NCBI GenBank assembly: GCA_016936215.1
Contig: JAFGPL010000194.1
Span: 1-37,256 of the forward strand
Direction: 5' to 3'
DNA: 37,256 nucleotides
Source: Bacteroidales bacterium
Lineage (GTDB): Bacteria > Bacteroidota > Bacteroidia > Bacteroidales > UBA10428
Shown: piece after piece, positions 22,788 to 36,997 of the stretch
Numbering within the stretch: position 1 is the first letter of the stretch
Layout: each line of letters starts with the position of its first letter
The notes under the pieces: model-generated
Database searches by the model: none
The model's input: the letters and a program-made list of their open reading frames with translations, nothing else
Told to the model about the DNA's origin: nothing
Translations under genes and position numbers: made by a program

Positions 22788-22828
22788 AAAAAGAAACCCG
22801 TTTTCATCTAAAAAACGGGTTTCTTTTT
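22788..22828. terminator. strong intrinsic terminator, probably bidirectional
   Basis: AAAAAGAAACCCGTTTT (22788-22804), loop CATCTAA, AAAACGGGTTTCTTTTT (22812-22828): 17 pairs with a T tract on one strand and an A tract that gives a T tract on the other. It lies between the convergent M16 peptidase and NUMOD1-like genes and can stop both. Confidence 0.9.
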
Positions 22829-22877
22829 TAACCAGAAAGAATTTATGCTTATCCTGTTTAATTGTTATACCGGTTTG

Positions 22878-23156
22878 TTAATGATGTTTTGTACGTTCGG
22901 CCAGGTTCTTTTCCATAGCCCGTAAATAATAAGATTTATATTTGATGTAATGGGTGCCTTTTTCAAATTCCCAGAAAACATTCCTGGCCTTATAAATTTT
23001 CCCGATGCATGCTTCAAAAATTAATGCGTAATTAATACCGGTATACCTTTCCGCTTCAAGAATGGTATTAAACCTGATGCTTTTATCTGCAAAATGACCG
23101 ATCACAGGAACATGGTATTTTTTCTGCATGCGTTTGTTATATGTTCGCTGGTTCAT
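22878..23156 (-). CDS. small NUMOD1-like DNA-binding domain protein
   Basis: This 92-residue basic protein has a segment, FNTILEAERYTGINYALI (about 30-47), followed by CIGKIYKARNVFWEFEKG, that fits the NUMOD1 helix-turn-helix pattern (F-x-S-I-x-E-A-x-x-x-T-G-I, then G-K-x-x-x-A-x-x-x-W). NUMOD1 is normally a DNA-binding module attached to homing endonucleases. No GIY-YIG or HNH nuclease domain is present in or next to the gene. It may be a domesticated remnant or a small regulator. The M-N-Q-R start is at ATG23156; no ribosome-binding site is obvious. Confidence 0.65.
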   Translation of the reverse strand: MNQRTYNKRMQKKYHVPVIGHFADKSIRFNTILEAERYTGINYALIFEACIGKIYKARNVFWEFEKGTHYIKYKSYYLRAMEKNLAERTKHH

Positions 23157-23376: not shown

Positions 23377-24984
23377 TTGAAAAGGTTATCTACAACAATA
23401 AATATTCAGTCTGAGGAATTCAAAGCTTCGTCGGAAAGATACCGGGGCCTTGTTAAAGAATACAGGCAGATATACCGTGAAATTATGAAAGGAGGTACTG
23501 AAACAGCCGTTAAAAAGCATCTTTCCCGAAATAAACTTCTTGTTCGTCAAAGAATTAATAAACTGCTTGATGTTGACACCCCGTTTCTGGAGTTATCCCC
23601 CCTGGCTGCCAACGACCAATATCAGAATGCTTTTCCTTCGGCGGGTATTATCACAGGTATTGGCCTGATTCACGGTAAAGAAACAGTTATTATTGGCAAT
23701 GATGCAACCGTGAAAGGCGGTACTTATGTGAAGGAAACCATAAAGAAACATCTGAGGGCACAGGAAATTGCTATGGAAAACAACCTGCCTGTTGTTTATC
23801 TTGTTGATTCGGGAGGTATTTATTTACCGGAGCAGGCAAATGTATTCCCTGATAAATATGATTTTGGCCGTATTTTTTTTAACCAGGCAAAGCTTTCTGC
23901 AATGGGCATTCCCCAGGTGTCAATTGTGATGGGCTCATGCACTGCTGGCGGGGCTTATATTCCGGCTATGAGCGACCAGACTGTTATCGTGAAAAACCAG
24001 GGCACCATTTTTCTTGGCGGGCCGCCGCTTGTTAAGGCTGCAACGGGTGAAGAAGTAACTTCTGAAGAGCTGGGAGGAGGATTTGTGCATACCACTAAAT
24101 CTGGTGTGGCTGATTATCTTGCCCTTAACGATGAACATGCCTTACAGCAATGTCGTGACATCTTTGAAACTATACCGGCTGCCCGCAAACAACATCTTGA
24201 TTTTTTCCCGGTAAGAGAACCGGAATATAACATCGAAGAGCTATATGGTATCCTTCCCCTTAATGCGAAGAGCACAGTTGATCCCAGGGAAATAATCATG
24301 CGCATTGCTGATGGAAGCGAATTCGATGAGTTTAAAGCCGGCTATGCAACCACGCTGGTAACAGGGTTTGCAAGGATTATGGGTTTTCCTTTGGGAATTA
24401 TCGCCAATAATGGAATATTGTTTTCTGAATCAGCACTTAAAGGCACTCATTTTATCGAATTATGCAATCGCCGTAATATCCCCATTTTGTTTCTGCAAAA
24501 CATTACCGGTTTTATGGTCGGCAAAGAATTTGAAAATGCAGGAATTGCCAAAGACGGGGCTAAAATGGTACAGGCTGTTGCCAATGCAAATGTACCAAAA
24601 TTCACGATAATTTTTGGCGGGTCTTATGGTGCGGGAAATTATGCCATGTCAGGCAGGGCATTTGGTTCACGGTTGCTTTTCATGTATCCTGCTTCATCAA
24701 TATCTGTGATGGGTGGTGAGCAGGCTGCTAACGTTCTTGATAATGTTGGTAACGTTAATTCACGTGACAATGTGCCGGATTTAAAAGCCGGACACGATAA
24801 CAGGATTAAGCAGGAGATACTTGAAAAATATCAAAAAGAAGGATCGGCCTATTACAGCACATCAAGATTATGGGATGATGGCATCATAGACCCTGCCGAT
24901 ACGCGCACCATTATTGCAATGGGCCTTAGCATGAGCCTTAACAGGAAATTTGATGAACCCAAAACAGGTATTTACCGGATGTAA
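23377..24984 (+). CDS. 3-methylcrotonyl-CoA carboxylase, carboxyltransferase (beta) subunit
   Basis: This subunit transfers the carboxyl group from biotin to 3-methylcrotonyl-CoA in leucine breakdown. The 535-residue length is that of MccB/LiuB. Two crotonase-fold carboxyltransferase halves are visible: the first with GSCTAGGAYIPAMSDQ, a match to the acyl-CoA-binding part, the second with FGGSYGAGNYAMSGRAF, the biotin side. No ATG fits the conserved N-terminus; the frame starts at a TTG (23377) with AAGGT just upstream, so I take TTG as start. Substrate choice over propionyl- or geranyl-CoA rests on the linked LiuC-like hydratase and acyl-CoA dehydrogenase. Ten bases separate it from the hydratase gene. 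Confidence 0.9.
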   Translation: MKRLSTTINIQSEEFKASSERYRGLVKEYRQIYREIMKGGTETAVKKHLSRNKLLVRQRINKLLDVDTPFLELSPLAANDQYQNAFPSAGIITGIGLIHGKETVIIGNDATVKGGTYVKETIKKHLRAQEIAMENNLPVVYLVDSGGIYLPEQANVFPDKYDFGRIFFNQAKLSAMGIPQVSIVMGSCTAGGAYIPAMSDQTVIVKNQGTIFLGGPPLVKAATGEEVTSEELGGGFVHTTKSGVADYLALNDEHALQQCRDIFETIPAARKQHLDFFPVREPEYNIEELYGILPLNAKSTVDPREIIMRIADGSEFDEFKAGYATTLVTGFARIMGFPLGIIANNGILFSESALKGTHFIELCNRRNIPILFLQNITGFMVGKEFENAGIAKDGAKMVQAVANANVPKFTIIFGGSYGAGNYAMSGRAFGSRLLFMYPASSISVMGGEQAANVLDNVGNVNSRDNVPDLKAGHDNRIKQEILEKYQKEGSAYYSTSRLWDDGIIDPADTRTIIAMGLSMSLNRKFDEPKTGIYRM

Positions 24985-24994
24985 AAAATGAATT

Positions 24995-25792
24995 ATGCTT
25001 TATAAATATATTGAAGTTTCTGTACACGACAACACAGCTTTTTTAAGGTTAAACAGGCCTGAGGTCAGAAATGCCCTTAACCGTGATATGACATCCGAAA
25101 TAATTGAAGCCCTTGATACCCTTGACAAGCAGGCTTCAGTAAGATTTATGGTAATGGAAGGCATCGGGGGGACTTTTTGTTCGGGTGCCGACTTAAACTG
25201 GATGAAAAGTGCAGCCGAAGCACCTTATGACAAAAACTTCGAAGACAGCTTGTTACTGGCCACGTGCATCAATAATCTATTTAATAGTGAAAAAATAACT
25301 ATTGCCAAAGTAATTGGCGATGCTTATGGAGGAGGTGTGGGCCTGGTTGCAGCTTGCGATTTTGCCTATGCAGAAACAAGATCAGTCTTTTCTTTCAGTG
25401 AAGTTAATCTCGGGTTGGTACCTTCTCTCATCATGCCTTATGTGTTTCAGAAGACAGGGATTCCTGCTTTGAAGGAACTTATTTTGACCGGAAGAAAAAT
25501 TCGGGGCGACGAAGCTTTAGAAATAGGACTTATCAATAAAAGTTTTGATGAAAAGGAAAATCTTGACGATGAGGTTAACCTGCTGATATTAAATCTTTCA
25601 AAGGCAGCACCACTGGCACAGCGCGAAATTAAAAAGCTTGTGAACCGTTATTCATTCATTAATTCCAGCAATAGTATTATTAATGAAACTGCAGGTTTGT
25701 TGGCAAAAATAAGGGCAGGTTCTGAAGCAAGGGAAGGCATGCAGGCCTTTTTGCAGAAAAAAGATCCCGTATGGGTCATTAACAGGGTTTAA
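24995..25792 (+). CDS. methylglutaconyl-CoA hydratase (LiuC-like enoyl-CoA hydratase)
   Basis: This is a crotonase-family enzyme of 265 residues that would add water to 3-methylglutaconyl-CoA, giving HMG-CoA. GTFCSGADLNWMK forms the CoA oxyanion-hole strand, and AYGGGVGLVAACDFAYAE plus FSFSEVNLGLVPSLIMPYV form the catalytic region. The GGGVGL sequence lacks the first catalytic Glu of classical enoyl-CoA hydratase (GGGCEL), while the second Glu (SEVNLG) is kept. The same pattern is known for bacterial LiuC proteins, which favours the methylglutaconyl-CoA assignment. It lies between the two carboxylase subunit genes, as in liu clusters of other bacteria. Confidence 0.85.
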   Translation: MLYKYIEVSVHDNTAFLRLNRPEVRNALNRDMTSEIIEALDTLDKQASVRFMVMEGIGGTFCSGADLNWMKSAAEAPYDKNFEDSLLLATCINNLFNSEKITIAKVIGDAYGGGVGLVAACDFAYAETRSVFSFSEVNLGLVPSLIMPYVFQKTGIPALKELILTGRKIRGDEALEIGLINKSFDEKENLDDEVNLLILNLSKAAPLAQREIKKLVNRYSFINSSNSIINETAGLLAKIRAGSEAREGMQAFLQKKDPVWVINRV

Positions 25793-25796
25793 ATGC

Positions 25797-27782
25797 ATGA
25801 TTAAAAAAATACTGATAGCAAACAGGGGCGAAATAGCCGTTAGAATTGCGCGCACTGCCAAAGAAATGGGTATTTCTACCGTCACGGTTTATGCCGAAGA
25901 CGATCACGATTCACCGCATATCGGGGTGGCAGATGAGGCATACTGCCTGGGTTCAGGGAATCTTACTGACACTTATCTGAATATTCAGAAGATTATTGAT
26001 GTCACCAAAGCAGCAAAATGTGATGCAATACACCCGGGTTATGGTTTTTTAAGCGAAAATGCTGAATTTGCACGTGCCTGTATTGATAACAATGTGGTAT
26101 TTATCGGTCCGTCCCCCGGGGTGATTAAGCTAATGGGCAACAAAAGGGAGGCAAACCATTTTGTGAAGTCTCTGGGTATCCCTGTACTGGAAGCTCTACC
26201 TGTTGTTGATAATTTTAAAAAATTACCTGAAAGCCTCCCTCCTTTTCCTTTGTTGGTTAAAGCGGTGGCCGGGGGTGGGGGTAAAGGTATGAAGATTGCC
26301 GGAAGCCAAAAGGAGCTAAAAGATGCTTTAGAAAGCGCATCACGTGAAGCTTTAACAGCCTTTGGCAATGGTGAGGTTTATATTGAAAAACTGGTTGAAC
26401 ATGCCAGACATATTGAGGTACAGTTACTGGGCGATAATTTTGGCAACATCATCCATCTTTTCGACAGGGAGTGTTCATTACAAAGACGTTATCAAAAGGT
26501 AATGGAAGAAGCGCCATCACCTTCACTCACCCCTGAACTGAGAAAAAAAATTACTGGCGCTGCAGTGCAGATTGCAAGGGCTGTGTCATACAATGGTGCT
26601 GGTACCATTGAGTTCCTTCTCGGAAACACCGGGGACTTTTACTTTCTCGAAATGAATACCAGGATACAGGTTGAACACCCTGTTACTGAATTTATTACAG
26701 GAACTGATATTGTGAGGGAACAGATACTTATAGCCTCGAACAACAAATTGTCTTTTACACAGGAAGAATTATTAATCAAGGGTCATGCAATAGAGGCGCG
26801 GGTTTATGCAGAAAATCCTTCCGACAATTTTCGCCCTTCCCCGGGGAAAATTTTGTACTGGTGGCATCCTGAATTGACTAACCTTCGTGTAGATACTGGA
26901 ATAAAGAGCGGTTATGAGCTGAAATATCAATACGACCCCATGATAGCAAAAATCATTGCATACGGGGAAGATCGTGGCAAGGCCATTTCAAAGCTGCAAA
27001 ACGGACTTTCAGGTACTGTTATACATGGAATGGTCAGCAACCTTACATTCCTGCAGACCCTTACCTCTGATAATAACTTTTTAATTAATAAAATTTCAAC
27101 CACTTACATTGAAGAAAACCTGGTGCGGTTGAATACAAGCACCCGACAGGATACATCTGCAAACGACATAATGTTTCTCATTGCAGCGGCAATCATCATT
27201 AAATACAATAAGGATAACAGTCAAATAGTTGAGAATGTCAACATATGGCAAAAAATAGGATTGTGGAGACATTTGATGATATTGACAGTCGAAATCAATA
27301 AAACCCGGCATGAGGTTGAAATCAAACAACATGGTAAAACATCATTCCTTTTTTATATAAACGGTCAGGAAAGTGAAATTAGCAGTACAATCCTGAAAGA
27401 AAATCTGGTATTTTTTGAGATGGATGGAACGAAATATCAATTTGAATATTCAGTAACAACAGACGGTGAAATCTGGCTGACAGGCATGCAGCAAACGGTG
27501 GTTGTTAAACGAAAAGACATACTTAGTAAACAGGTTGAAGCTGCAACTGAGTTATATAATGTTGAACACGAAAAAACAATTGTTTCACCCATGCATGGCA
27601 AAATTCTTAAAGTTTTAGTGAGCGAGAATTGTGAAATCACCAAAAACGATACCTTGTTGATCATAGATTCCATGAAAACCGAAAACAGGATCATGGCACC
27701 ATTGTCGGGAAAGATTGGCAAAGTATACGTAAAGGAAGGAGACCAGGTAAAAACGAATATGTTACTGGCTGAAATCCAGTAA
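25797..27782 (+). CDS. 3-methylcrotonyl-CoA carboxylase, biotin carboxylase/BCCP (alpha) subunit
   Basis: The 661-residue subunit combines biotin carboxylase (1-445) and biotin carboxyl carrier domain. MIKKILIANRGEIAVRIARTAK and VAGGGGKGMK (the ATP-grasp loop) open it; DRECSLQRRYQKVMEEAPSP is the carboxylation site. At the end, DSMKTENR carries the biotin lysine at K627, 34 residues from the C-terminus, as expected; the usual AMKM is SMKT here. Residues about 480-590 form the MCC-type linker domain. It begins four bases after the hydratase stop. Together with the beta subunit it would form a complete MCC. Confidence 0.92.
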   Translation: MIKKILIANRGEIAVRIARTAKEMGISTVTVYAEDDHDSPHIGVADEAYCLGSGNLTDTYLNIQKIIDVTKAAKCDAIHPGYGFLSENAEFARACIDNNVVFIGPSPGVIKLMGNKREANHFVKSLGIPVLEALPVVDNFKKLPESLPPFPLLVKAVAGGGGKGMKIAGSQKELKDALESASREALTAFGNGEVYIEKLVEHARHIEVQLLGDNFGNIIHLFDRECSLQRRYQKVMEEAPSPSLTPELRKKITGAAVQIARAVSYNGAGTIEFLLGNTGDFYFLEMNTRIQVEHPVTEFITGTDIVREQILIASNNKLSFTQEELLIKGHAIEARVYAENPSDNFRPSPGKILYWWHPELTNLRVDTGIKSGYELKYQYDPMIAKIIAYGEDRGKAISKLQNGLSGTVIHGMVSNLTFLQTLTSDNNFLINKISTTYIEENLVRLNTSTRQDTSANDIMFLIAAAIIIKYNKDNSQIVENVNIWQKIGLWRHLMILTVEINKTRHEVEIKQHGKTSFLFYINGQESEISSTILKENLVFFEMDGTKYQFEYSVTTDGEIWLTGMQQTVVVKRKDILSKQVEAATELYNVEHEKTIVSPMHGKILKVLVSENCEITKNDTLLIIDSMKTENRIMAPLSGKIGKVYVKEGDQVKTNMLLAEIQ

Positions 27783-27843
27783 GGCAAAATGTTTATCATT
27801 TTCGTGAAAATATTAAACTAAAATTGAATCCCGCTGTTCTTTT

Positions 27844-29010
27844 ATGATAAAACAAAACCAAATGCACCCATATATTACAGATCAACACGAAATGTTCAGG
27901 AAAAGAGTTCGCGATTTTGCCGAGAAAGAGGTCAAACCTTTGGCCCGCGAACTTGATGAAAAGGGCAGGTTTTCTGCCGAACTCACTATGAAAATGGGGG
28001 AATTGGACCTTTTTGGCATTACAATCCCTGAAAAATACGGAGGCAAAAATCTCGATACTTTATCATATATCATTGCTGTTGAAGAGCTTGCCAGGATTGA
28101 TGGCTCCCAAGCAGCAACAGTTGCCTCGCATAATTCCCTTGGTATTTGGCCCATCTATCGTTTCGGCACCGAAGAACAAAAACTTAAATTTCTGCCCGGG
28201 TTGATGACAGGGGAGAAGCTATGGGCATTTGGATTGACAGAACCTAATGCTGGTTCCGACTCCAGGGGAACAGAAACAACGGCCAATCTTGATAACGGGA
28301 AATGGGTTATTAACGGTTCAAAAATTTTCATCACCAATTCAGCTTCAGAATTATCAGCAGGGGCTACAATCCAGGTAGTTACAAATCAGGAAGGTGATAG
28401 AAAAGAATTGTCGGTGATCCTTGTTGACCGCAATACAAGTGGCTATTATGCTGAAAGAATTGGCAATAAGATGATGTGGCGGTCAGCCGATACAGGAAAG
28501 CTCGAATTCAGGAATTGCAGTGTGCCCGAAGAAAACCTTCTTGGGTCAAGGGGGCAAGGTTCGGCCATTATGCTCGAAACGCTTGACGGCGGAAGGCTTT
28601 CTATTGCTGCTATGGGACTCGGTCTTGCCCAGGGGGCATTTGAGCAGGCAATGGACTATGCAAAAAAAAGACAACAGTTTGGCCGTCCGATTTATAAGTT
28701 TCAGGCAATCTCTTTCAAACTTTCAGACATGGCGCTTAAGATTGAATTAGCCAGGAACCTCCTTTATAAAGCCTGCTGGCTGAAAGATAATAATCTGCCT
28801 TTTGGAAAAGAAGCAGCAATGGCCAAGCTATACTGTTCAGAAACAGCACGTGAGGTAGCCGATGAAGCCGTTCAGGTTCACGGGGCTTACGGGCTTTTTA
28901 AGGATAATGATATTGAAAGGTTTTACCGCGACCAGCGCATCCTGCAAATCGGCGAAGGCACATCAGAAATATTGCGGGTTGTAATTGCAAGGCATCTTGG
29001 GATAAGATAA
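27844..29010 (+). CDS. acyl-CoA dehydrogenase (isovaleryl-CoA candidate, SCAD-type active site)
   Basis: This FAD-dependent dehydrogenase of 388 residues has the substrate loop LTEPNAGSDS and the FAD/CoA signature GAYGLFKDNDIERFYRDQRI. The catalytic base is E371 in IGEGTSEI, the position used by short-chain and branched-chain dehydrogenases. Isovaleryl-CoA dehydrogenase instead uses a Glu in the LDLERL motif and has Gly/Ala at this place; here that motif is LDGGRL (G250). The active site is therefore of the SCAD/2-methylacyl type. The gene cluster suggests isovaleryl-CoA, but the sequence also allows 2-methylbutyryl- or butyryl-CoA. A 61-base gap separates it from the carboxylase gene. Confidence 0.9.
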   Translation: MIKQNQMHPYITDQHEMFRKRVRDFAEKEVKPLARELDEKGRFSAELTMKMGELDLFGITIPEKYGGKNLDTLSYIIAVEELARIDGSQAATVASHNSLGIWPIYRFGTEEQKLKFLPGLMTGEKLWAFGLTEPNAGSDSRGTETTANLDNGKWVINGSKIFITNSASELSAGATIQVVTNQEGDRKELSVILVDRNTSGYYAERIGNKMMWRSADTGKLEFRNCSVPEENLLGSRGQGSAIMLETLDGGRLSIAAMGLGLAQGAFEQAMDYAKKRQQFGRPIYKFQAISFKLSDMALKIELARNLLYKACWLKDNNLPFGKEAAMAKLYCSETAREVADEAVQVHGAYGLFKDNDIERFYRDQRILQIGEGTSEILRVVIARHLGIR

Positions 29011-29036
29011 ATAAACAGGAGATAAAATCAGATAAG

Positions 29037-30359
29037 ATGATGATAGAAGGATTTTCAAGACTGTCTTCTGATGAAAAAATTAAACTGGCTTCTGGTTTTC
29101 TGCATGATGCCAATGGATTCGGTAATGATTTGGAATCTCACAGGCATAAAGACGAAGCTTATCAAAGCATCTACAATCAGCTTTCAGAAAATTCTGTTTC
29201 AAACTATTTTCTTCCTTATGGATTTGCCCCGAATTTCCTTGTGAATGGTAAAGTGTACATGGTACCGATGGTAACAGAAGAGAGTTCGGTGGTTGCTGCA
29301 GTTGCAGCGGCAGCAAAATACTGGTTCACGCGCGGAGGTTTCACCACACGTGTGGTCTCTGCATTAAAAAACGGTCAGGTACATTTTACATGGTCGGGGG
29401 AATTCAGGAAACTACTGGATATGGTGGCAAGCACAAAACATTACTTGCTGGCCGCAACCGAGCCTGTTACTTCAAAGATGAAAAAAAGGGGCGGCGGTAT
29501 ACTCGATATCGAACTAATGGATAAGAGACAAGAACTGCCGGATTATTACCAGTTGCATGTAACCTTTGATACACTTGACTCGATGGGCGCTAATTTTATC
29601 AATTCGGTCCTTGAAACCATAGCTCATGAGTTCAGGCAATTGGTAATCTCCTGGCCCGGATTTAATGTGAAAGAACGAAATATAGAAATTGTTATGGCAA
29701 TTCTATCAAATTATGCCCCCGAATGTTTAACCGAATGTTATGTTGAGTGTCCCGTGGAAGAATTAACCGGAAACCCGGGTGATTATACCCCTGAGCAGTT
29801 TGCCCGCAGATTTAAACTTGCGGTAGACATTGCAGGGGTGGATATCTATAGGGCGGTAACACATAATAAAGGTATTTTTAATGGCATGGACGCGGTAACC
29901 ATTGCCACCGGAAACGATTTCAGGGCGATAGAAGCGCAGGGTCATGCATGGGCATCGCGCAGCGGAACATATCGCGGGCTTACCGAGGTTTCTATTGATG
30001 ACAATACATTTAACTTTAAATTAACTCTCCCAATAACCATTGGAACTGTGGGAGGTATAACACAAATTCATCCGTTGGCCAAACGCTCGCTCGAACTTTT
30101 GAACAATCCGGACGCCAAAGAGCTGATGCAAATTATTGCAACTGTCGGGCTGGCCAGTAATTTCAGTGCCATAAGGTCGCTGGTTACAAGCGGGATACAA
30201 TCGGGACATATGAAACTTCACCTTGCCAATATACTTCAAAGTCTTATGGCGTCCGATAAAGAAAAGGAGCTGGCAACGGGATATTTTAAAAACAAAACAG
30301 TGTCATACAGCGCTGTGGAGGAATATTTGCAGTCTCTGAGAAAAAAGAATTTTAAGTGA
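29037..30359 (+). CDS. hydroxymethylglutaryl-CoA reductase, class II
   Basis: This 440-residue enzyme reduces HMG-CoA to mevalonate (or the reverse) in the cytoplasm. The class II residue set is present: Glu in VTEESSVVAA (81/82), K278 in HNKGIFNGM, D294 in GNDFR, and H391 in SGHMKLH. K278-D294 spacing of 16 equals that of the Pseudomonas mevalonii enzyme (267-283). The class covers NADH-dependent degradative enzymes and biosynthetic bacterial ones; the linked mevalonate kinase and decarboxylase favour synthesis. It follows the acyl-CoA dehydrogenase by 26 bases and its stop overlaps the next ATG (TGATG). ATG29040 is an alternative start. Confidence 0.95.
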   Translation: MMIEGFSRLSSDEKIKLASGFLHDANGFGNDLESHRHKDEAYQSIYNQLSENSVSNYFLPYGFAPNFLVNGKVYMVPMVTEESSVVAAVAAAAKYWFTRGGFTTRVVSALKNGQVHFTWSGEFRKLLDMVASTKHYLLAATEPVTSKMKKRGGGILDIELMDKRQELPDYYQLHVTFDTLDSMGANFINSVLETIAHEFRQLVISWPGFNVKERNIEIVMAILSNYAPECLTECYVECPVEELTGNPGDYTPEQFARRFKLAVDIAGVDIYRAVTHNKGIFNGMDAVTIATGNDFRAIEAQGHAWASRSGTYRGLTEVSIDDNTFNFKLTLPITIGTVGGITQIHPLAKRSLELLNNPDAKELMQIIATVGLASNFSAIRSLVTSGIQSGHMKLHLANILQSLMASDKEKELATGYFKNKTVSYSAVEEYLQSLRKKNFK

Positions 30360-31279
30360 TGGCCGCGAGATATTCTTCAAACGGAAAACTATTATTGACA
30401 GGTGAGTATTGTGTGCTGCACGGAGCTCTTTCACTTGCTGTGCCTGTAAAGTACAAGCAGTGGCTTGAAGTAACCGAATCAAAAAGCGCCTTTTCACCTA
30501 TTCTGAGCTGGAATGCAATGAATAATGGAAAAGCATGGTTCAATGCCCTCTTTGAAACGAAAAGTCTTAGAATATTGGAAACCAGTAATTTTACCATTGC
30601 CGGGAAGCTGAATAAACTTCTTGTAGCAGCAAAAAAAATTAACAGCGTATTTCTTTCAGGTGACACTTCGTTTTCGGTTCATACCGGTACTGATTTCGAT
30701 ATTAATTGGGGACTTGGCGCCAGTTCTACGCTTATCGTAAACCTTTCACGGTGGGCGGGGATTGATCCCTTTGAACTATTCTTTAACACCGTTGAAGGAT
30801 CAGGTTATGACATAGCCTGTGCTGTTTCTGGATCACCAATACTTTATTGGAAAGACGGACTATTGCCAAAGTTTCAAAAGGTGAACTTCCATCCCCGTTT
30901 TCATACCGGTATTTATTTTATTTATCTCGGTCGCAAACAAGATACTGCCTTGGGCGTTAAAAAATTCTTGTCTGAAAAAAATTGCCAGCCGGGAATGGTT
31001 GAGAGTATCAGCTTTTTGACAAAACAGATGTTAACTGCTAAAAACCTTGTTGAATTTGGTGATGCGATGGAAGAACATGAGCAACTGATGTCTGGTTTGC
31101 TTGAAATACCTTCTGTAAAGCTTCAATTTTCTGATTTTGAAGGTAAATTGAAATCACTCGGTGCATGGGGCGGCGATTTTATGATGGCTGCATGGCCCGG
31201 CAGTGAAAAAGAGATCAGGGAATATTTCAGCAATAAAGGCCTAAAAACAGTTATCCCTTTTAATGAACTGGTTTTATGA
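30359..31279 (+). CDS. GYDIA-family GHMP kinase
   Basis: This GHMP-superfamily kinase of 306 residues has the ATP loop GLGASSTLIVN (about residues 118-128 of the protein) and the GYDIACA segment that names the family. It sits between HMG-CoA reductase and diphosphomevalonate decarboxylase; a separate mevalonate kinase is encoded two genes later. By elimination it is a candidate phosphomevalonate kinase, but biochemical assignment is not established from sequence. A GTG at 30356 could also serve as the start; ATG30359 overlaps the upstream stop as TGATG and is preferred. It overlaps the next gene by four bases (ATGA). Confidence 0.85.
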   Translation: MAARYSSNGKLLLTGEYCVLHGALSLAVPVKYKQWLEVTESKSAFSPILSWNAMNNGKAWFNALFETKSLRILETSNFTIAGKLNKLLVAAKKINSVFLSGDTSFSVHTGTDFDINWGLGASSTLIVNLSRWAGIDPFELFFNTVEGSGYDIACAVSGSPILYWKDGLLPKFQKVNFHPRFHTGIYFIYLGRKQDTALGVKKFLSEKNCQPGMVESISFLTKQMLTAKNLVEFGDAMEEHEQLMSGLLEIPSVKLQFSDFEGKLKSLGAWGGDFMMAAWPGSEKEIREYFSNKGLKTVIPFNELVL

Positions 31280-32382
31280 AAAATGAAAATCAATACCGGC
31301 ATTACCTTGAGGAGGCAAAAGACTCTATTTATGATATTTCCCCTAAGGAAGGTGTTACAGAATGGATTTGTCCCTCGAACATTGCACTTGTAAAATACTG
31401 GGGAAAGAAAGATAATCAGGTTCCTTATAATCCTTCTGTTAGTATTACCTTGAAAAATGCATTTACCAGCCTTAAACTCGAATATTCCAAAACATCAGGC
31501 ATCCATCCTGCACCGCCTGAGTTTTATTTTGAAGGGAAAAGAAATAAGCCTTATGAAAGCAGGGTGGGGGGTTACCTTGAAACGGTTAAGCCATTTTTCC
31601 CTTTTTTAAATCAACTCAGGATTAAGATTCATAGTGAGAATAGTTTTCCCGCAGCCACTGGAATAGCCTCCTCTGCTTCGTCTTTTGGTGCCCTGGCGCT
31701 TTCAATCACCGGGATTGAATATTCGTTTCTCGGAAAATCTCTTGATGACCGGTTTTACAGAAAAGCATCATTTATGGCAAGGCTCGGTTCCGGAAGTGCA
31801 TGCCGCTCTGTATATGGAGGAGTGGTGTTATGGGGATATTCAGAAGAAGTCCCTGGTTCATCAGATGAATATGCAGTTTCAATCAATGACAAGGCAAACG
31901 GGATTTTTAAAAATTATTGTGATTCAATTCTCATCATTACCAAAGAAAAAAAACAGGTTTCAAGCAGCGATGGACATCGTTTGATGAATTCAAACCCATA
32001 TGCCGTAAACAGGTTTGCAGAGGCACGCAATAATATCACGAATCTTCTGCATGCAATTTCATCCGGCGATCAATCAGGGTTTATAAGTATTGCGGAGGGC
32101 GAAGCCATGGCGTTGCACGCCATGATGATGACCGGCAAACCCTATTATTTGCTGATGAAGCCCCAAACAGTTTCTGCCATTGAAAAAATCCGTCAGTATC
32201 GTGAAACTACTGGCCATCCTGTGTGTTTTACCCTCGATGCCGGGGCTAATGTGCACATGTTATATCCGGCACATATAAGCCGGGATGTTCACAAGTTTAT
32301 TGATTCAGGTTTGCGTGAATTTTGCATAGATGGTGAGGTGCTGCATGATATTACTGGTGACGGGCCCAAAAAACTGGTGTAA
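31276..32382 (+). CDS. mvaD: diphosphomevalonate decarboxylase
   Basis: This is a GHMP-fold enzyme of 368 residues that converts mevalonate diphosphate to isopentenyl diphosphate. SNIALVKYWGKKD (34-46) is the substrate motif, FPAATGIASSASSFGA the ATP-phosphate loop, GSGSACRSVYGGVVLW the serine-rich region, and FTLDAGANVHMLY holds the catalytic Asp. All are intact. The N-terminus is longer than in many MvaD proteins by about 20 residues. The start codon overlaps the preceding stop (ATGA). The TIPS-type alternative product (isopentenyl phosphate from mevalonate phosphate) is possible in principle, but the conserved Asp argues for the classical route. Confidence 0.93.
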   Translation: MKNENQYRHYLEEAKDSIYDISPKEGVTEWICPSNIALVKYWGKKDNQVPYNPSVSITLKNAFTSLKLEYSKTSGIHPAPPEFYFEGKRNKPYESRVGGYLETVKPFFPFLNQLRIKIHSENSFPAATGIASSASSFGALALSITGIEYSFLGKSLDDRFYRKASFMARLGSGSACRSVYGGVVLWGYSEEVPGSSDEYAVSINDKANGIFKNYCDSILIITKEKKQVSSSDGHRLMNSNPYAVNRFAEARNNITNLLHAISSGDQSGFISIAEGEAMALHAMMMTGKPYYLLMKPQTVSAIEKIRQYRETTGHPVCFTLDAGANVHMLYPAHISRDVHKFIDSGLREFCIDGEVLHDITGDGPKKLV

Positions 32383-32429
32383 ATATTGAATGCTGAAAAT
32401 TTACAAAATAATGGTCCATACGTTAATAA

Positions 32430-33323
32430 ATGTTAACAATGGCTTTTGAGAAGTTTAATGGCAAAATAATGCTTTTTGGTGAGTATTCGGTACTCAGGGG
32501 AGGACCCGCGCTTACCATGCCATACCGGAATGGGTATGGACAGTTTAAATTTCCTGTTTCAACAGTTTCCAACAGCGATTCCTGGTCGAACAATGAGCTG
32601 AACAGGTACCTCGAATATTTAGGGATAATTAAAGAAATTGACCACACAAAGTTCAGACATGATATAAAAGCCGGGTTGGTTTTCAGTTCTACGTTACCTG
32701 TGGGATATGGTGTGGGAAGTTCGGGGGCTTTGGTAGCGGCTGTATTTAGCTATTATAGCACCATACAGGAAGCATTAAACGTAAACTTGCAGGATTTAAG
32801 GACTTTTTTATCCCGGATGGAGTCGTATTTTCATGGCTCCAGCTCAGGAATTGATCCGTTAAGTTGTTACCTGGGAAGACCTTTAATTATTAACAAAGAT
32901 CATATTACCCCTGTCAGTCCATCTCGTGTTTTTCAAGACCGTTTCTTTCTTTTAAATTCTGGCCGGCCCGGTTCTACGGGCAATATGGTCAGGCTTTTTG
33001 AAAAAAAGTGCAACGGCAAAGATTTCTGTACAATGATGGATGGTGATTTTTTGCACTCAAATTCGATGGCTATTGATGGTTTTGTTAACGGGGATAAAAA
33101 GAATCTGACCGATGGGTTTAAAATGATTTCTTCGTTGCAATATAACTTTTTTGAAGAGATGATACCTGAAAGTGTTCGCCCTATATGGAAATCAGGACTG
33201 GAATCGGATAGTTATTACCTCAAACTTTGCGGTTCGGGTGGAGGAGGGTTTGTAATCGGGATAATCAATAATCCGGATGAGATAAAAACTGTTGATTTTG
33301 AAATGATGCCTCTTAAAAATTGA
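32430..33323 (+). CDS. mevalonate kinase
   Basis: This 297-residue GHMP kinase phosphorylates mevalonate. FNGKIMLFGEYSVLRGGPAL forms the start of the substrate site, GVGSSGALVAA the ATP loop, HGSSSGIDP the region with the catalytic Asp, and CGSGGGGFVIG the C-terminal GHMP motif. The true start may be ATG32439, since MAFEKFNGKI is closest to the family N-terminus; neither ATG has a clear ribosome-binding site. A 47-base gap follows mvaD. It is the last gene of the run; a loose hairpin and T tract follow at 33370-33426. Confidence 0.85.
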   Translation: MLTMAFEKFNGKIMLFGEYSVLRGGPALTMPYRNGYGQFKFPVSTVSNSDSWSNNELNRYLEYLGIIKEIDHTKFRHDIKAGLVFSSTLPVGYGVGSSGALVAAVFSYYSTIQEALNVNLQDLRTFLSRMESYFHGSSSGIDPLSCYLGRPLIINKDHITPVSPSRVFQDRFFLLNSGRPGSTGNMVRLFEKKCNGKDFCTMMDGDFLHSNSMAIDGFVNGDKKNLTDGFKMISSLQYNFFEEMIPESVRPIWKSGLESDSYYLKLCGSGGGGFVIGIINNPDEIKTVDFEMMPLKN

Positions 33324-33625: not shown

Positions 33626-36600
33626 GTGGTGAGACTGGTGTTTAGAATAGCGGGCAAGAGATATTTCATTCTTAGGTTATTAATATTATCCTTATTATTG
33701 CATGCTTTTACATATAATGTATTAGCGCAGTATAAAAACTATCAGCTCCAGTTTAATGCAATCACCATAGAAGACGGTTTAACGAACAATAAAGTCAACA
33801 GTATTGTAAAAGATAAACACGGGTTTGTTTGGTTTGCAACAAATGATGGTTTATGCAGGTATGGAGGGTTAAAATTATGGAATTACCATCTTGATCCCCT
33901 GAAAACCAATAACACAAATACCAACCATATCAATACGCTTTGTAACGATGCCGAGGGAAACCTTTGGGTTGGGGCTTTTTCTCTTTTCAGGTATGATGAT
34001 GTTTCTGATAATTTTAAACATTACTCTTCAAAAGATTCATTAGCTGATAAGATAGGGCGTTTACGGGCTATTATTTGTGATAACAGCGGGTGCCTTTTTA
34101 TTGGTGCGGTGAAAGGTCTTTTCTCTTATTATCCGCGGCAGGATAGTCTTGTGCACCATCTTTCAGATGACATTAATGTAAAGAATATCAGGTCTTTGAT
34201 GCAGGATGGTGACACTATATGGATCGGGACAGACGATGATGGTGTTTTAGTCTTTTCAAAAAAAACCGGACGAATTACATCACCGGTTATAGCGGCCGGT
34301 TATAAGGGCAGCGGAAATGCTGTTCAATGTTTTTTCAAAGAAAATGAACATACCATTTGGGCTGGCACCTATGCCAACGGATTATTAAAGATTAATACCA
34401 AAAAAGCTGAAATTAAAAACTTTTTCCCCGATCCGGATAATGACCTTTCTTATCGTACCCGGAGCATAATGAAAGATTTTAAGGGTAATGTATGGTTTGG
34501 GACAAGAGGTGGCTTGTTTGTGAAATTTGCAGGAACCGACACACTATACCACTATGCGCACACAAAACACCCTGTTACAAGGATCACAGATAACTCAATA
34601 TTTAATATATACATTGATAACCATTATGTTATGTGGTTGGGTACATTTGCAGGCGGGGCGAATTACACAAATCTTATCAGTAAACCGATCTATAATTTCT
34701 CAAAAGATGAAAATGTTCCCGGAACGCTAAGCGATAATGTGTTGTATGGATTTTGCGAAGACCATCTGGGTAATGTCTATATCGGTACCAACGATGGCGG
34801 TTTAGACTATTTTAATAAAGCAGAGGGTACATTTACAAATTTTATGAGCAATACGAAAGATAAATGTTCTGTTGGTTCAAACAATATCAAAAGTATAGTG
34901 CAGGACAAGAATAATAACTTTTGGATTGGTATGTACAGCGGGGGCGTTAACTGTCTCAATCCGGCCACGAACTGTTTTATAAAGCTCGACCAATTGGTAA
35001 AACCCGGGAACAAACTCATCAGTAATAATGTCTATGCCCTTGTACTGGATAAAAACAACATTTTATGGATAGGGACTGAAAGAGGGATTGACCGGTTTAA
35101 TATTGATGAAAAAACAATAGATAACGTGCTTAAGAACAGTCGCGTATTATGTTTGTACAAAGACCATTATGAAAGAATTTGGACTGGCGTGGAGAATACA
35201 GGTATTTTTTTATATGATGAAAAGTCCGGCAAGTTTAAACCGGCTTTCAGGCAAATAATCAATACAGGGATTACCGCAATGCACCTCGATAGCAAAGACA
35301 ACCTCTGGCTGGGGGGGAACATTGGGCTATTGTATATAAATACAGCCGATACCACCTCAAAACTATATACCAAAAATGATGGCTTGCCCACCAACCTTAT
35401 AATGGGTATTCTTGAAGACGATCACAAAAACCTATGGATAAGCACTACTGCAGGTTTAGCAAAGTGCACAAACCTTGTAGAAAACGCCGGTTCTTTAAAT
35501 GTCAGGACTTTCACTGAAAAAGACGGCTTACAAAACAAACATTTTCTGAATTATTCTTACTACAAGTCCGGTACCGGTGAGATGTATTTTGGAGGCATCC
35601 AGGGCTTTAGTATGTTTCACCCGGATTCCATGAAAGACAATCCGTTTCAGCCCCAGATTGCCCTTACAGATATAAAGATTTTTAATCAAAGTGTCGGCAT
35701 TGGAAATAAAATACATGGTAAAGCAATTCTTGAAAAATCACCGATTATAACCAAAGAGATTAAGCTGTCGTACAAGCACAGGATTTTTACATTTGAATTT
35801 GCTGCCCTGCATAATGTTAACCCTGAGCAGATTAAATATCAATACATGCTCTATCCCTTTGAAAAAAACTGGAGCCAGACCGATGCTGTAAATCCTTCGG
35901 TCACCTATACCAATCTTCACGGGGGCAATTATACATTCAGGATAAAAGCGGCAAACAGCGACGGGGTTTGGAGCGATCAGCCGTATGAACTGTCAGTTAC
36001 CATTCTTCCCCCTTTCTGGCGCACTACATGGTTTATACTGTTTATGGTGCTGCTTGTAATTGTAGGTTTTATACTGATATACAATAGCAGGGTCAATGCC
36101 ATTGAAAAGCAAAAAAACAGGCTCGAAATGATGGTACAGGAACGTACCAAAACCATCACCGAGATGAACAGTCTTTTAAAAAATCAAACCAAAGAGCTAA
36201 AGACAACCAATAAATTGCTTGAAGAACAGAAAGACCAGATTACCGAGCAGGCTGAAGAACTTGAATCACAGAAGGAGGAGTTGCTCAAGCAAAAAAACAT
36301 GCTTCAGAACCTCAATTCGATGAAAGATAAATTTTTCTCTATTATCGCACACGATCTCAAAGGACCTTTTCAGGGCATACTTGGCCTTACCGATATTCTT
36401 GCCAACGATTACGATGAATGTGCTGATGAGGAGAGAAAACAATACTTTGAGGCGATAAACAACTCATCAAAGAATTTTTACAACCTGCTGGATAATCTGC
36501 TCACCTGGGCAAGGACACAATTGGAGCACGTAACTGTTGACCGGGGCGAATTCGACATTAAAGAACTTCTGGAGAATAACATTAGGCTTCTTGAAGAGAA

Positions 36601-36997
36601 TTTCACAAAGAAGAAAATTTCTGTTCAGGTTAATTATTCCAAAGGAACAAACGTACTTGCCGATAAAAACATGATTGATACTGTTGTGAGGAATCTGCTT
36701 TCGAATGCAATAAAATTTTCAAACGCGGGAGGTGAAGTAAGTATCAATACCAAACACGAAGATAAACAGGTTACCGTTTCGGTAATTGACTCCGGCATAG
36801 GTATGACTGAGGAACAGCTTCAGGGTTTATTCCTGATAGATAAGTCAAGTTCACGGCCAGGCACTTCAGGCGAGTTGGGAACAGGATTGGGTTTGATACT
36901 CTGTTATGAGTTTATCATTAAAAACGGGGGTCGGATATGGGCTGAAAGCCTTGATGGTAAAGGAAGTGCTTTCCATTTTTCCTTAACGGCAAAATAG
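33626..36997 (+). CDS. two-component-propeller sensor histidine kinase
   Basis: This membrane sensor of 1123 residues has a signal segment (RYFILRLLILSLLLHAF, cleavage near LAQ-YK), a periplasmic beta-propeller made of repeats of the 'GLTNNKVNSIVKDKHGFVWF' type (about 40-720), a Y_Y_Y domain (about 730-795), one membrane helix (about 800-822), a coiled coil rich in Glu/Gln/Lys, then the kinase core. H909 in IAHDLKGPF is the phosphorylated His; NLLSNAIKFS, DSGIGMT and GTGLGL are the N, G1 and G2 boxes. The protein stops after the ATPase domain: the receiver and AraC domains of classical hybrid polysaccharide sensors are absent, so a separate regulator is needed. No ATG is available; the start is GTG, at 33626 or 33629. 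The ligand is unknown. Confidence 0.92.
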   Translation: MVRLVFRIAGKRYFILRLLILSLLLHAFTYNVLAQYKNYQLQFNAITIEDGLTNNKVNSIVKDKHGFVWFATNDGLCRYGGLKLWNYHLDPLKTNNTNTNHINTLCNDAEGNLWVGAFSLFRYDDVSDNFKHYSSKDSLADKIGRLRAIICDNSGCLFIGAVKGLFSYYPRQDSLVHHLSDDINVKNIRSLMQDGDTIWIGTDDDGVLVFSKKTGRITSPVIAAGYKGSGNAVQCFFKENEHTIWAGTYANGLLKINTKKAEIKNFFPDPDNDLSYRTRSIMKDFKGNVWFGTRGGLFVKFAGTDTLYHYAHTKHPVTRITDNSIFNIYIDNHYVMWLGTFAGGANYTNLISKPIYNFSKDENVPGTLSDNVLYGFCEDHLGNVYIGTNDGGLDYFNKAEGTFTNFMSNTKDKCSVGSNNIKSIVQDKNNNFWIGMYSGGVNCLNPATNCFIKLDQLVKPGNKLISNNVYALVLDKNNILWIGTERGIDRFNIDEKTIDNVLKNSRVLCLYKDHYERIWTGVENTGIFLYDEKSGKFKPAFRQIINTGITAMHLDSKDNLWLGGNIGLLYINTADTTSKLYTKNDGLPTNLIMGILEDDHKNLWISTTAGLAKCTNLVENAGSLNVRTFTEKDGLQNKHFLNYSYYKSGTGEMYFGGIQGFSMFHPDSMKDNPFQPQIALTDIKIFNQSVGIGNKIHGKAILEKSPIITKEIKLSYKHRIFTFEFAALHNVNPEQIKYQYMLYPFEKNWSQTDAVNPSVTYTNLHGGNYTFRIKAANSDGVWSDQPYELSVTILPPFWRTTWFILFMVLLVIVGFILIYNSRVNAIEKQKNRLEMMVQERTKTITEMNSLLKNQTKELKTTNKLLEEQKDQITEQAEELESQKEELLKQKNMLQNLNSMKDKFFSIIAHDLKGPFQGILGLTDILANDYDECADEERKQYFEAINNSSKNFYNLLDNLLTWARTQLEHVTVDRGEFDIKELLENNIRLLEENFTKKKISVQVNYSKGTNVLADKNMIDTVVRNLLSNAIKFSNAGGEVSINTKHEDKQVTVSVIDSGIGMTEEQLQGLFLIDKSSSRPGTSGELGTGLGLILCYEFIIKNGGRIWAESLDGKGSAFHFSLTAK

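Follow-up and report, generated by a model that had tools for sequence, protein, structure and literature searches.

A gene string joining leucine degradation to the mevalonate pathway in a Bacteroidales genome: a probable leucine shunt towards isopentenyl diphosphate

The window analysed here is a stretch of 37,256 nucleotides (bases 1-37256 of contig 267) from the genome of a Bacteroidales bacterium, which comprises 5.3 Mb in 332 contigs and is rated 100% complete and 3.42% contaminated (G000 among our genome handles; loci carry L numbers). At positions 23377-33323 on the + strand it holds eight uninterrupted open reading frames (ORFs), all on that strand, in which genes of leucine degradation run directly into genes of the mevalonate pathway; judging from their sequences, we consider it probable that the eight genes form a leucine-shunt operon making isopentenyl diphosphate (IPP) from leucine or isovalerate. 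The first-pass annotation of this DNA had given the gene order, the coordinates and the spacing, all of which stand: from 5' to 3' the gaps are 10, 4, 61, 26, -4, -4 and 47 bases. The two halves meet in a junction of 26 bases (29011-29036). A promoter and a terminator at this boundary had been named as grounds for separating the halves, and a consensus scan found no promoter- or terminator-like match on the + strand in 29010-29037; the four + strand terminator-like matches in the scanned stretch all lie within genes.

The first gene (23377-24984) encodes the beta subunit of 3-methylcrotonyl-coenzyme A (CoA) carboxylase (MCC). Its TTG start is plausible because the protein aligns with 9tps from residue 1 and AAGG lies upstream. 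Against solved MCC beta subunits it scores 639.8 bits (3u9r, which we take to be the MCC of Pseudomonas aeruginosa) and 643.1 bits (8j4z); its top two matches, 9tps (656.8 bits) and 4q0g (645.5 bits), bear labels of propionyl- or acetyl-/propionyl-CoA carboxylase, and with classical propionyl-CoA carboxylases it reaches at most 273.8 bits (1vrg and below). Geranyl-CoA carboxylase was considered for this subunit and ruled out by score (425.5 bits to 5ikl). MCC alpha (25797-27782) carries biotin carboxylase and biotinyl domains with the motif SMK. Between the two subunit genes lies a LiuC-like protein of the crotonase family (24995-25792), which from its superfamily and genomic context would be the 3-methylglutaconyl-CoA hydratase; with it, the steps from 3-methylcrotonyl-CoA to 3-hydroxy-3-methylglutaryl-CoA (HMG-CoA) are encoded. 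The fourth gene (27844-29010) encodes an acyl-CoA dehydrogenase resembling short-chain acyl-CoA dehydrogenases (SCAD), the proposed isovaleryl-CoA oxidiser. The motif GEGTSE occurs in it and in 29 of 29 near-full-length relatives from leucine clusters, drawn from the order and from named genomes; clusters of this type consistently carry the SCAD-like protein as their dehydrogenase.

The second half opens with an HMG-CoA reductase (HMGR; 29037-30359) of class II, with PF00368 over its cut-off and 443.7 bits to 7n7s against 200.4 to 1qax. The motifs EESS, THNKG, TGNDF and SGHMK are all present; in class II reductases, these motifs supply Glu, Lys, Asp and His for catalysis. Next come a GHMP kinase of the GYDIA family (30356-31279; 324.2 bits to NF040656, cut-off 225), proposed as the phosphomevalonate kinase; a diphosphomevalonate decarboxylase (MVD; 31276-32382), most of whose length can be aligned to solved enzymes of this kind; and a mevalonate kinase-like GHMP kinase (MVK; 32430-33323). 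Seven of the eight operon proteins pass their Pfam cut-offs, MVD and MVK among them, the exception being GYDIA. With GYDIA as the putative phosphomevalonate kinase, HMGR and the lower mevalonate enzymes are thus all encoded.

The window HMGR was used as a query against 99 relatives, 25 of which gave matches; in 24 of these (own genome included) the match goes beyond a mere fragment of the kind seen in G096. Named genomes were scanned as well and yielded 22 loci, of which 19 are from Bacteroidota, and the 24 and the 19 make up our sample of 43 HMGR-bearing genomes. We call a genome joined if dehydrogenase and HMGR follow in order on one contig, and unjoined if they do not and at least 4 kb upstream is visible. 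Nineteen of the 43 genomes, the own one counted in both figures, fall into the joined group and 13 into the unjoined, while 11 are interrupted by contig ends. The junction that the first-pass annotation had described from this one genome is therefore more than chance, since it recurs in 18 others. MCC beta through mevalonate kinase are all visible in 14 joined genomes, the other five being cut by contig ends. A type 2 IPP isomerase (IDI-2) lies between dehydrogenase and HMGR in 17 of the 19, with the window and L067 as exceptions; the copy in L035 scores 189.5 bits with TIGR02151, under the cut-off of 281.3, but this is its sole family match.

Nine of the joined genomes alone represent five family codes, and on an HMGR tree of 82 sequences the difference between joined and unjoined genomes requires one change; the tree was made by a quick method that leaves 29 of 79 inner branches open and on which gains and losses are indistinguishable. 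Among ORFs of 150 aa or more lying no further than 4 kb from a joined cluster, 14 of the 171 pairs that the 19 loci form share a match (22 rows); none of these involves the window, and many loci have just 0-2.5 kb of flank on a side. The cluster genes are under purifying selection in relatives: the ratio of nonsynonymous to synonymous substitution rates (dN/dS) for the closest pair, L042 and L044, is 0.04-0.20 over seven genes (0.088 for HMGR), and two further pairs give computable values of 0.05-0.19 with synonymous sites near saturation; for the window, no relative is close enough to allow such a comparison. Beyond the order, 40 of the 86 class genomes were viewed and showed no joined cluster, some of them with only 2-6 kb visible upstream. 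Partial leucine neighbours occur there in L122 (an MCC alpha-like gene) and in L102 and L103, whose dehydrogenase relatives are more distant (about 41-42% identical) and read YEGTSE.

The annotation had proposed that HMG-CoA is made here without HMG-CoA synthase (HMGS). The Pfam model PF08540 found no HMGS in the own genome or in any of the 43. Its sensitivity is low, with 42-102 bits for Bacteroidota HMGS and 24.0 bits, under the cut-off, for an archaeal-type HMGS, and it was dropped as sole test. Because of these weak scores we built a profile, A1, from an alignment of 13 of 16 Bacteroidota HMGS-like proteins, and ran it on 80 genomes. A1 gives more than 700 bits to true HMGS in G137, G319 and G322, and should also reveal archaeal-type HMGS, since it gives 67 bits to the one in G364 (L149; 549.6 bits to NF003274). 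Across the 43 genomes it found no HMGS, just matches of 20.5-24.6 bits in G000, G107, G108 and G109. The own match (24.6 bits) was ruled out as HMGS, being FabH (NF006829, 412 bits); those in G107 and G109 are FabH-like by eye, and that in G108 has no family assigned. Locally gathered ORFs beside HMGR likewise gave no HMGS with A1. For the whole own genome, then, both profiles support the absence of HMGS that the proposal calls for.

HMG-CoA lyase, which the annotation had placed at the end of usual leucine clusters and seen replaced here by the reductase, was sought with NF004283. The own genome gave three matches, all under the cut-off of 246 bits (best 46.4). Lyase-like matches with E up to 1e-20 occur in 9 of the 57 genomes that include 14 HMGR-negative ones of the order (best per genome 172-203 bits, all below cut-off). 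None of the 19 joined genomes and none of the 14 HMGR-negative ones has such a match, against 6 of the 13 unjoined and 3 of the 11 interrupted; for joined vs unjoined the Fisher p is 0.0019, the genomes not being independent. In L157 and L160, stand-alone leucine clusters of two unjoined genomes, the next match behind the dehydrogenase, 140-260 bases on, is the lyase-like gene, and it is this position that isomerase or reductase occupies in joined clusters. The replacement can thus be seen within the order, usually with the isomerase coming first. A longer form of lyase-like protein (336 aa; L084:1465-3704) stands beside an acetoacetate-CoA ligase in G094, where the leucine and mevalonate clusters are separate.

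Based on this, we suggest that the eight genes would be transcribed as one unit and would act in series. Isovaleryl-CoA, derived from leucine or from environmental isovalerate, would be oxidised to 3-methylcrotonyl-CoA, carboxylated to 3-methylglutaconyl-CoA and hydrated to HMG-CoA; this would be reduced to mevalonate, which two phosphorylations would turn into mevalonate phosphate and then mevalonate diphosphate, and a decarboxylation would yield IPP. Such a shunt would replace acetoacetyl-CoA thiolase and HMGS as the source of HMG-CoA and would supplement the methylerythritol phosphate (MEP) pathway. Flux from leucine to IPP is likely to be the direction because the pathway includes a decarboxylation. 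We speculate that it serves physiologically to salvage branched carbon, perhaps under conditions in which Fe-S enzymes of the MEP pathway become limiting.

Several observations weigh against this reading. At the level of single enzymes, GYDIA alone among the eight passes its NCBIfam cut-off; HMGR falls narrowly short (255.0 vs 259.95, or 5 bits), MVD scores 156.7 against 171.35, and MVK and LiuC are far below. The dehydrogenase is of the SCAD or butyryl type, with 381.2 bits to 5ol2 against 200.6 to the isovaleryl-CoA dehydrogenase 1ivh. As it is constant in these clusters yet unlike isovaleryl-CoA dehydrogenases, we infer its substrate, isovaleryl-CoA, from its place among the genes. The earlier assignment of the first four genes to the path from isovaleryl-CoA to HMG-CoA thus stands by sequence for MCC, and not for the dehydrogenase. 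As to linkage, setting joined genomes against all other rows of the HMGR tree (class and interrupted) requires four changes, of which at least two are forced by well-supported branches. Linkage is also not required, because the unjoined genomes are likewise without detected HMGS. G006, an HMGR-negative genome of the same family, keeps the four leucine genes (L170, where the contig ends just after), and the same-genus G001 is without HMGR and without full-length MCC alpha, so that the leucine/mevalonate module is dispensable. Nor is the absence of lyase specific to joined genomes, as all 14 HMGR-negative genomes of the order share it, and the missing lyase is weakened as their hallmark. A search for IDI-2 in the own genome, which did not extend to IDI-1, found none (best 22.3 bits).

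A further point against concerns the MEP pathway, which we judged by DXR alone. The own genome encodes DXR (473.6 bits), as do 52 of the 57 genomes tested (51 over cut-off), among them 39 of the 43 HMGR-bearing ones. Isoprenoid synthesis as such would therefore not depend on the shunt, and the operon is most likely a second route beside MEP. What the first-pass annotation had said of leucine carbon feeding isoprenoids is in line with the gene set and with the missing HMGS, and is to be narrowed to a probable second supply.

The wider class presents an HMG-CoA puzzle of its own. Of 396 class genomes, 87 (own included) have an HMGR relative; among the 86 others, PF08540 marks HMGS in 16 of 78 tested, and DXR is found in 4 of 79 HMGR-bearing class genomes. 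On 35 class genomes A1 detected three HMGS with more than 700 bits and one of archaeal type, and gave a weak 20.5-bit match in G251. Neither HMGS nor DXR was found in 29 of the 35 HMGR-bearing class genomes tested for both, G251 counted in, which agrees poorly with excerpts of PMC4026382, where several Flavobacteriaceae have all but one mevalonate enzyme. Four genomes that gave neither (G245, G297, G427 and G460) are single-contig and rated 100% complete. A sample of G245 (800,000 of 2,587,874 bases, 31%) contained one MCC beta-like gene (44%), a weak crotonase match and a biotin carboxylase match, and no HMGS was seen in it. In such genomes the HMG-CoA source may have been missed by the models, or the leucine route may be the only source. 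G364, of the same class, has DXR in addition to its archaeal-type HMGS, and in a class-genome mevalonate cluster a geranylgeranyl reductase-like FAD protein (L093:6671-7915) stands between GYDIA kinase and decarboxylase. A bolder scenario, which we hold to be conceivable but doubtful, is that part of the Bacteroidota lost HMGS and re-founded the mevalonate pathway on leucine or isovalerate, that the genes were welded together in one lineage, and that leucine is the sole isoprenoid source in relatives without HMGS and DXR.

Among other explanations of the operon, the one that survives best, and which we nonetheless regard as unlikely, is that an HMGS unrelated to known ones, or a reversed lyase-type enzyme, supplies the mevalonate genes with HMG-CoA, the leucine genes being adjacent for some other reason. 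The class genomes that show neither HMGS nor DXR make such a source conceivable, and 13 of the 43 genomes have the halves apart; A1, however, is sensitive enough to pick up FabH and archaeal-type HMGS, the 19 joined genomes show no lyase-like protein down to the threshold used, and the junction is retained where the flanks differ. It is quite improbable, in our view, that the same chemistry serves disposal, with reductase and kinases draining leucine-derived HMG-CoA and reducing power in place of a lyase while MEP supplies the isoprenoids. DXR in 39 of 43 genomes and the want of a lyase-like gene in joined ones would fit this, but IPP, which costs three ATP to make from mevalonate, is an expensive sink, and the isomerase in 17 of the 19 joined clusters suggests that the product is used. 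Degradative-type class II HMGRs can run from mevalonate to HMG-CoA, which counts for a route in reverse, from mevalonate through HMG-CoA to isovaleryl-CoA for iso-fatty acids. Myxococcus xanthus does make isovaleryl-CoA from HMG-CoA (PMC9548883), but we consider this reading highly implausible here, since no HMGS was found to make HMG-CoA and mevalonate would have to be imported, the kinases and decarboxylase that share the string speak for the forward direction, and no Aib name appears among the family assignments of the eight operon genes, to which that search was confined.

Around the operon, a strong inverted repeat with A/T tails lies at 22788-22829, between an M16 peptidase gene and the operon; it was noticed by eye, is absent from the consensus-scan list and is likely a bidirectional terminator. 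A 92-aa ORF on the - strand (22878-23156) is divergent from the operon, and directly downstream (33626-36997) a protein of 1123 aa combines two-component regulator propeller, Y_Y_Y and histidine kinase domains.

If the leucine-shunt reading is true, bacteria would have a genome-encoded, selected route from leucine to isoprenoids, which would account for Bacteroidota mevalonate genes without the pathway-starting synthase and would tie leucine or isovalerate to the synthesis of quinones and cell-wall carriers. For terpenoid engineering, the operon would also provide a set of genes ready for use; to the knowledge of the authors of one review, a leucine shunt had not yet been constructed in E. coli (PMC8791446). 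One carrier of the complete nine-gene cluster, Tangfeifania diversioriginum DSM 27063 (L038), is in a culture collection, so the hypothesis is directly testable.

Liu clusters, which serve leucine and isovalerate utilisation, bring MCC beta, hydratase, MCC alpha and dehydrogenase together, and the window operon does the same, as do L157 and L160, which also share its SCAD-like dehydrogenase; it differs in having no lyase and in the HMGR that follows the dehydrogenase, in relatives usually behind the IPP isomerase. With the mevalonate pathway of Flavobacteriaceae (Elizabethkingia), which according to excerpts of PMC4026382 has all but one enzyme, an unassigned phosphomevalonate kinase and no MEP enzymes, it shares the question of which protein is the phosphomevalonate kinase, for which GYDIA is the candidate here; unlike that pathway, it comes without detected HMGS and with DXR. 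Forward flux was said by the first-pass annotation to be known in some eukaryotes such as Leishmania. This is correct but not confined to eukaryotes: a leucine shunt to terpenoids is validated by labelling in Halobacterium salinarum as well as in Leishmania mexicana (PMC8791446), and dimethylacrylate label enters a myxobacterial sesquiterpene, with no significant shift from 13C-acetate (PMC7321100). As in the former two, the leucine skeleton would here pass uncleaved through HMG-CoA into the mevalonate pathway (PMC8791446); unlike them, the present case is a conserved gene string in DXR-bearing bacteria in which neither HMGS nor lyase was detected. The myxobacterial branch likewise brings leucine-branch carbon into an isoprenoid (PMC7321100), but M. 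xanthus also uses the aib route, which leads the other way, from HMG-CoA to isovaleryl-CoA (PMC9548883), and has HMGS, going by a title in the reference list of that paper; the excerpts of either source (PMC7321100, PMC9548883) make no mention of a single operon of this kind. Among the literature matches listed (titles and abstract openings, with subscription journals mostly not covered), none reports an HMGS-less joined operon. The new element thus lies in how the two pathways are coupled, physically and in evolution, and in the absent synthase; the chemistry is already known from these other systems.

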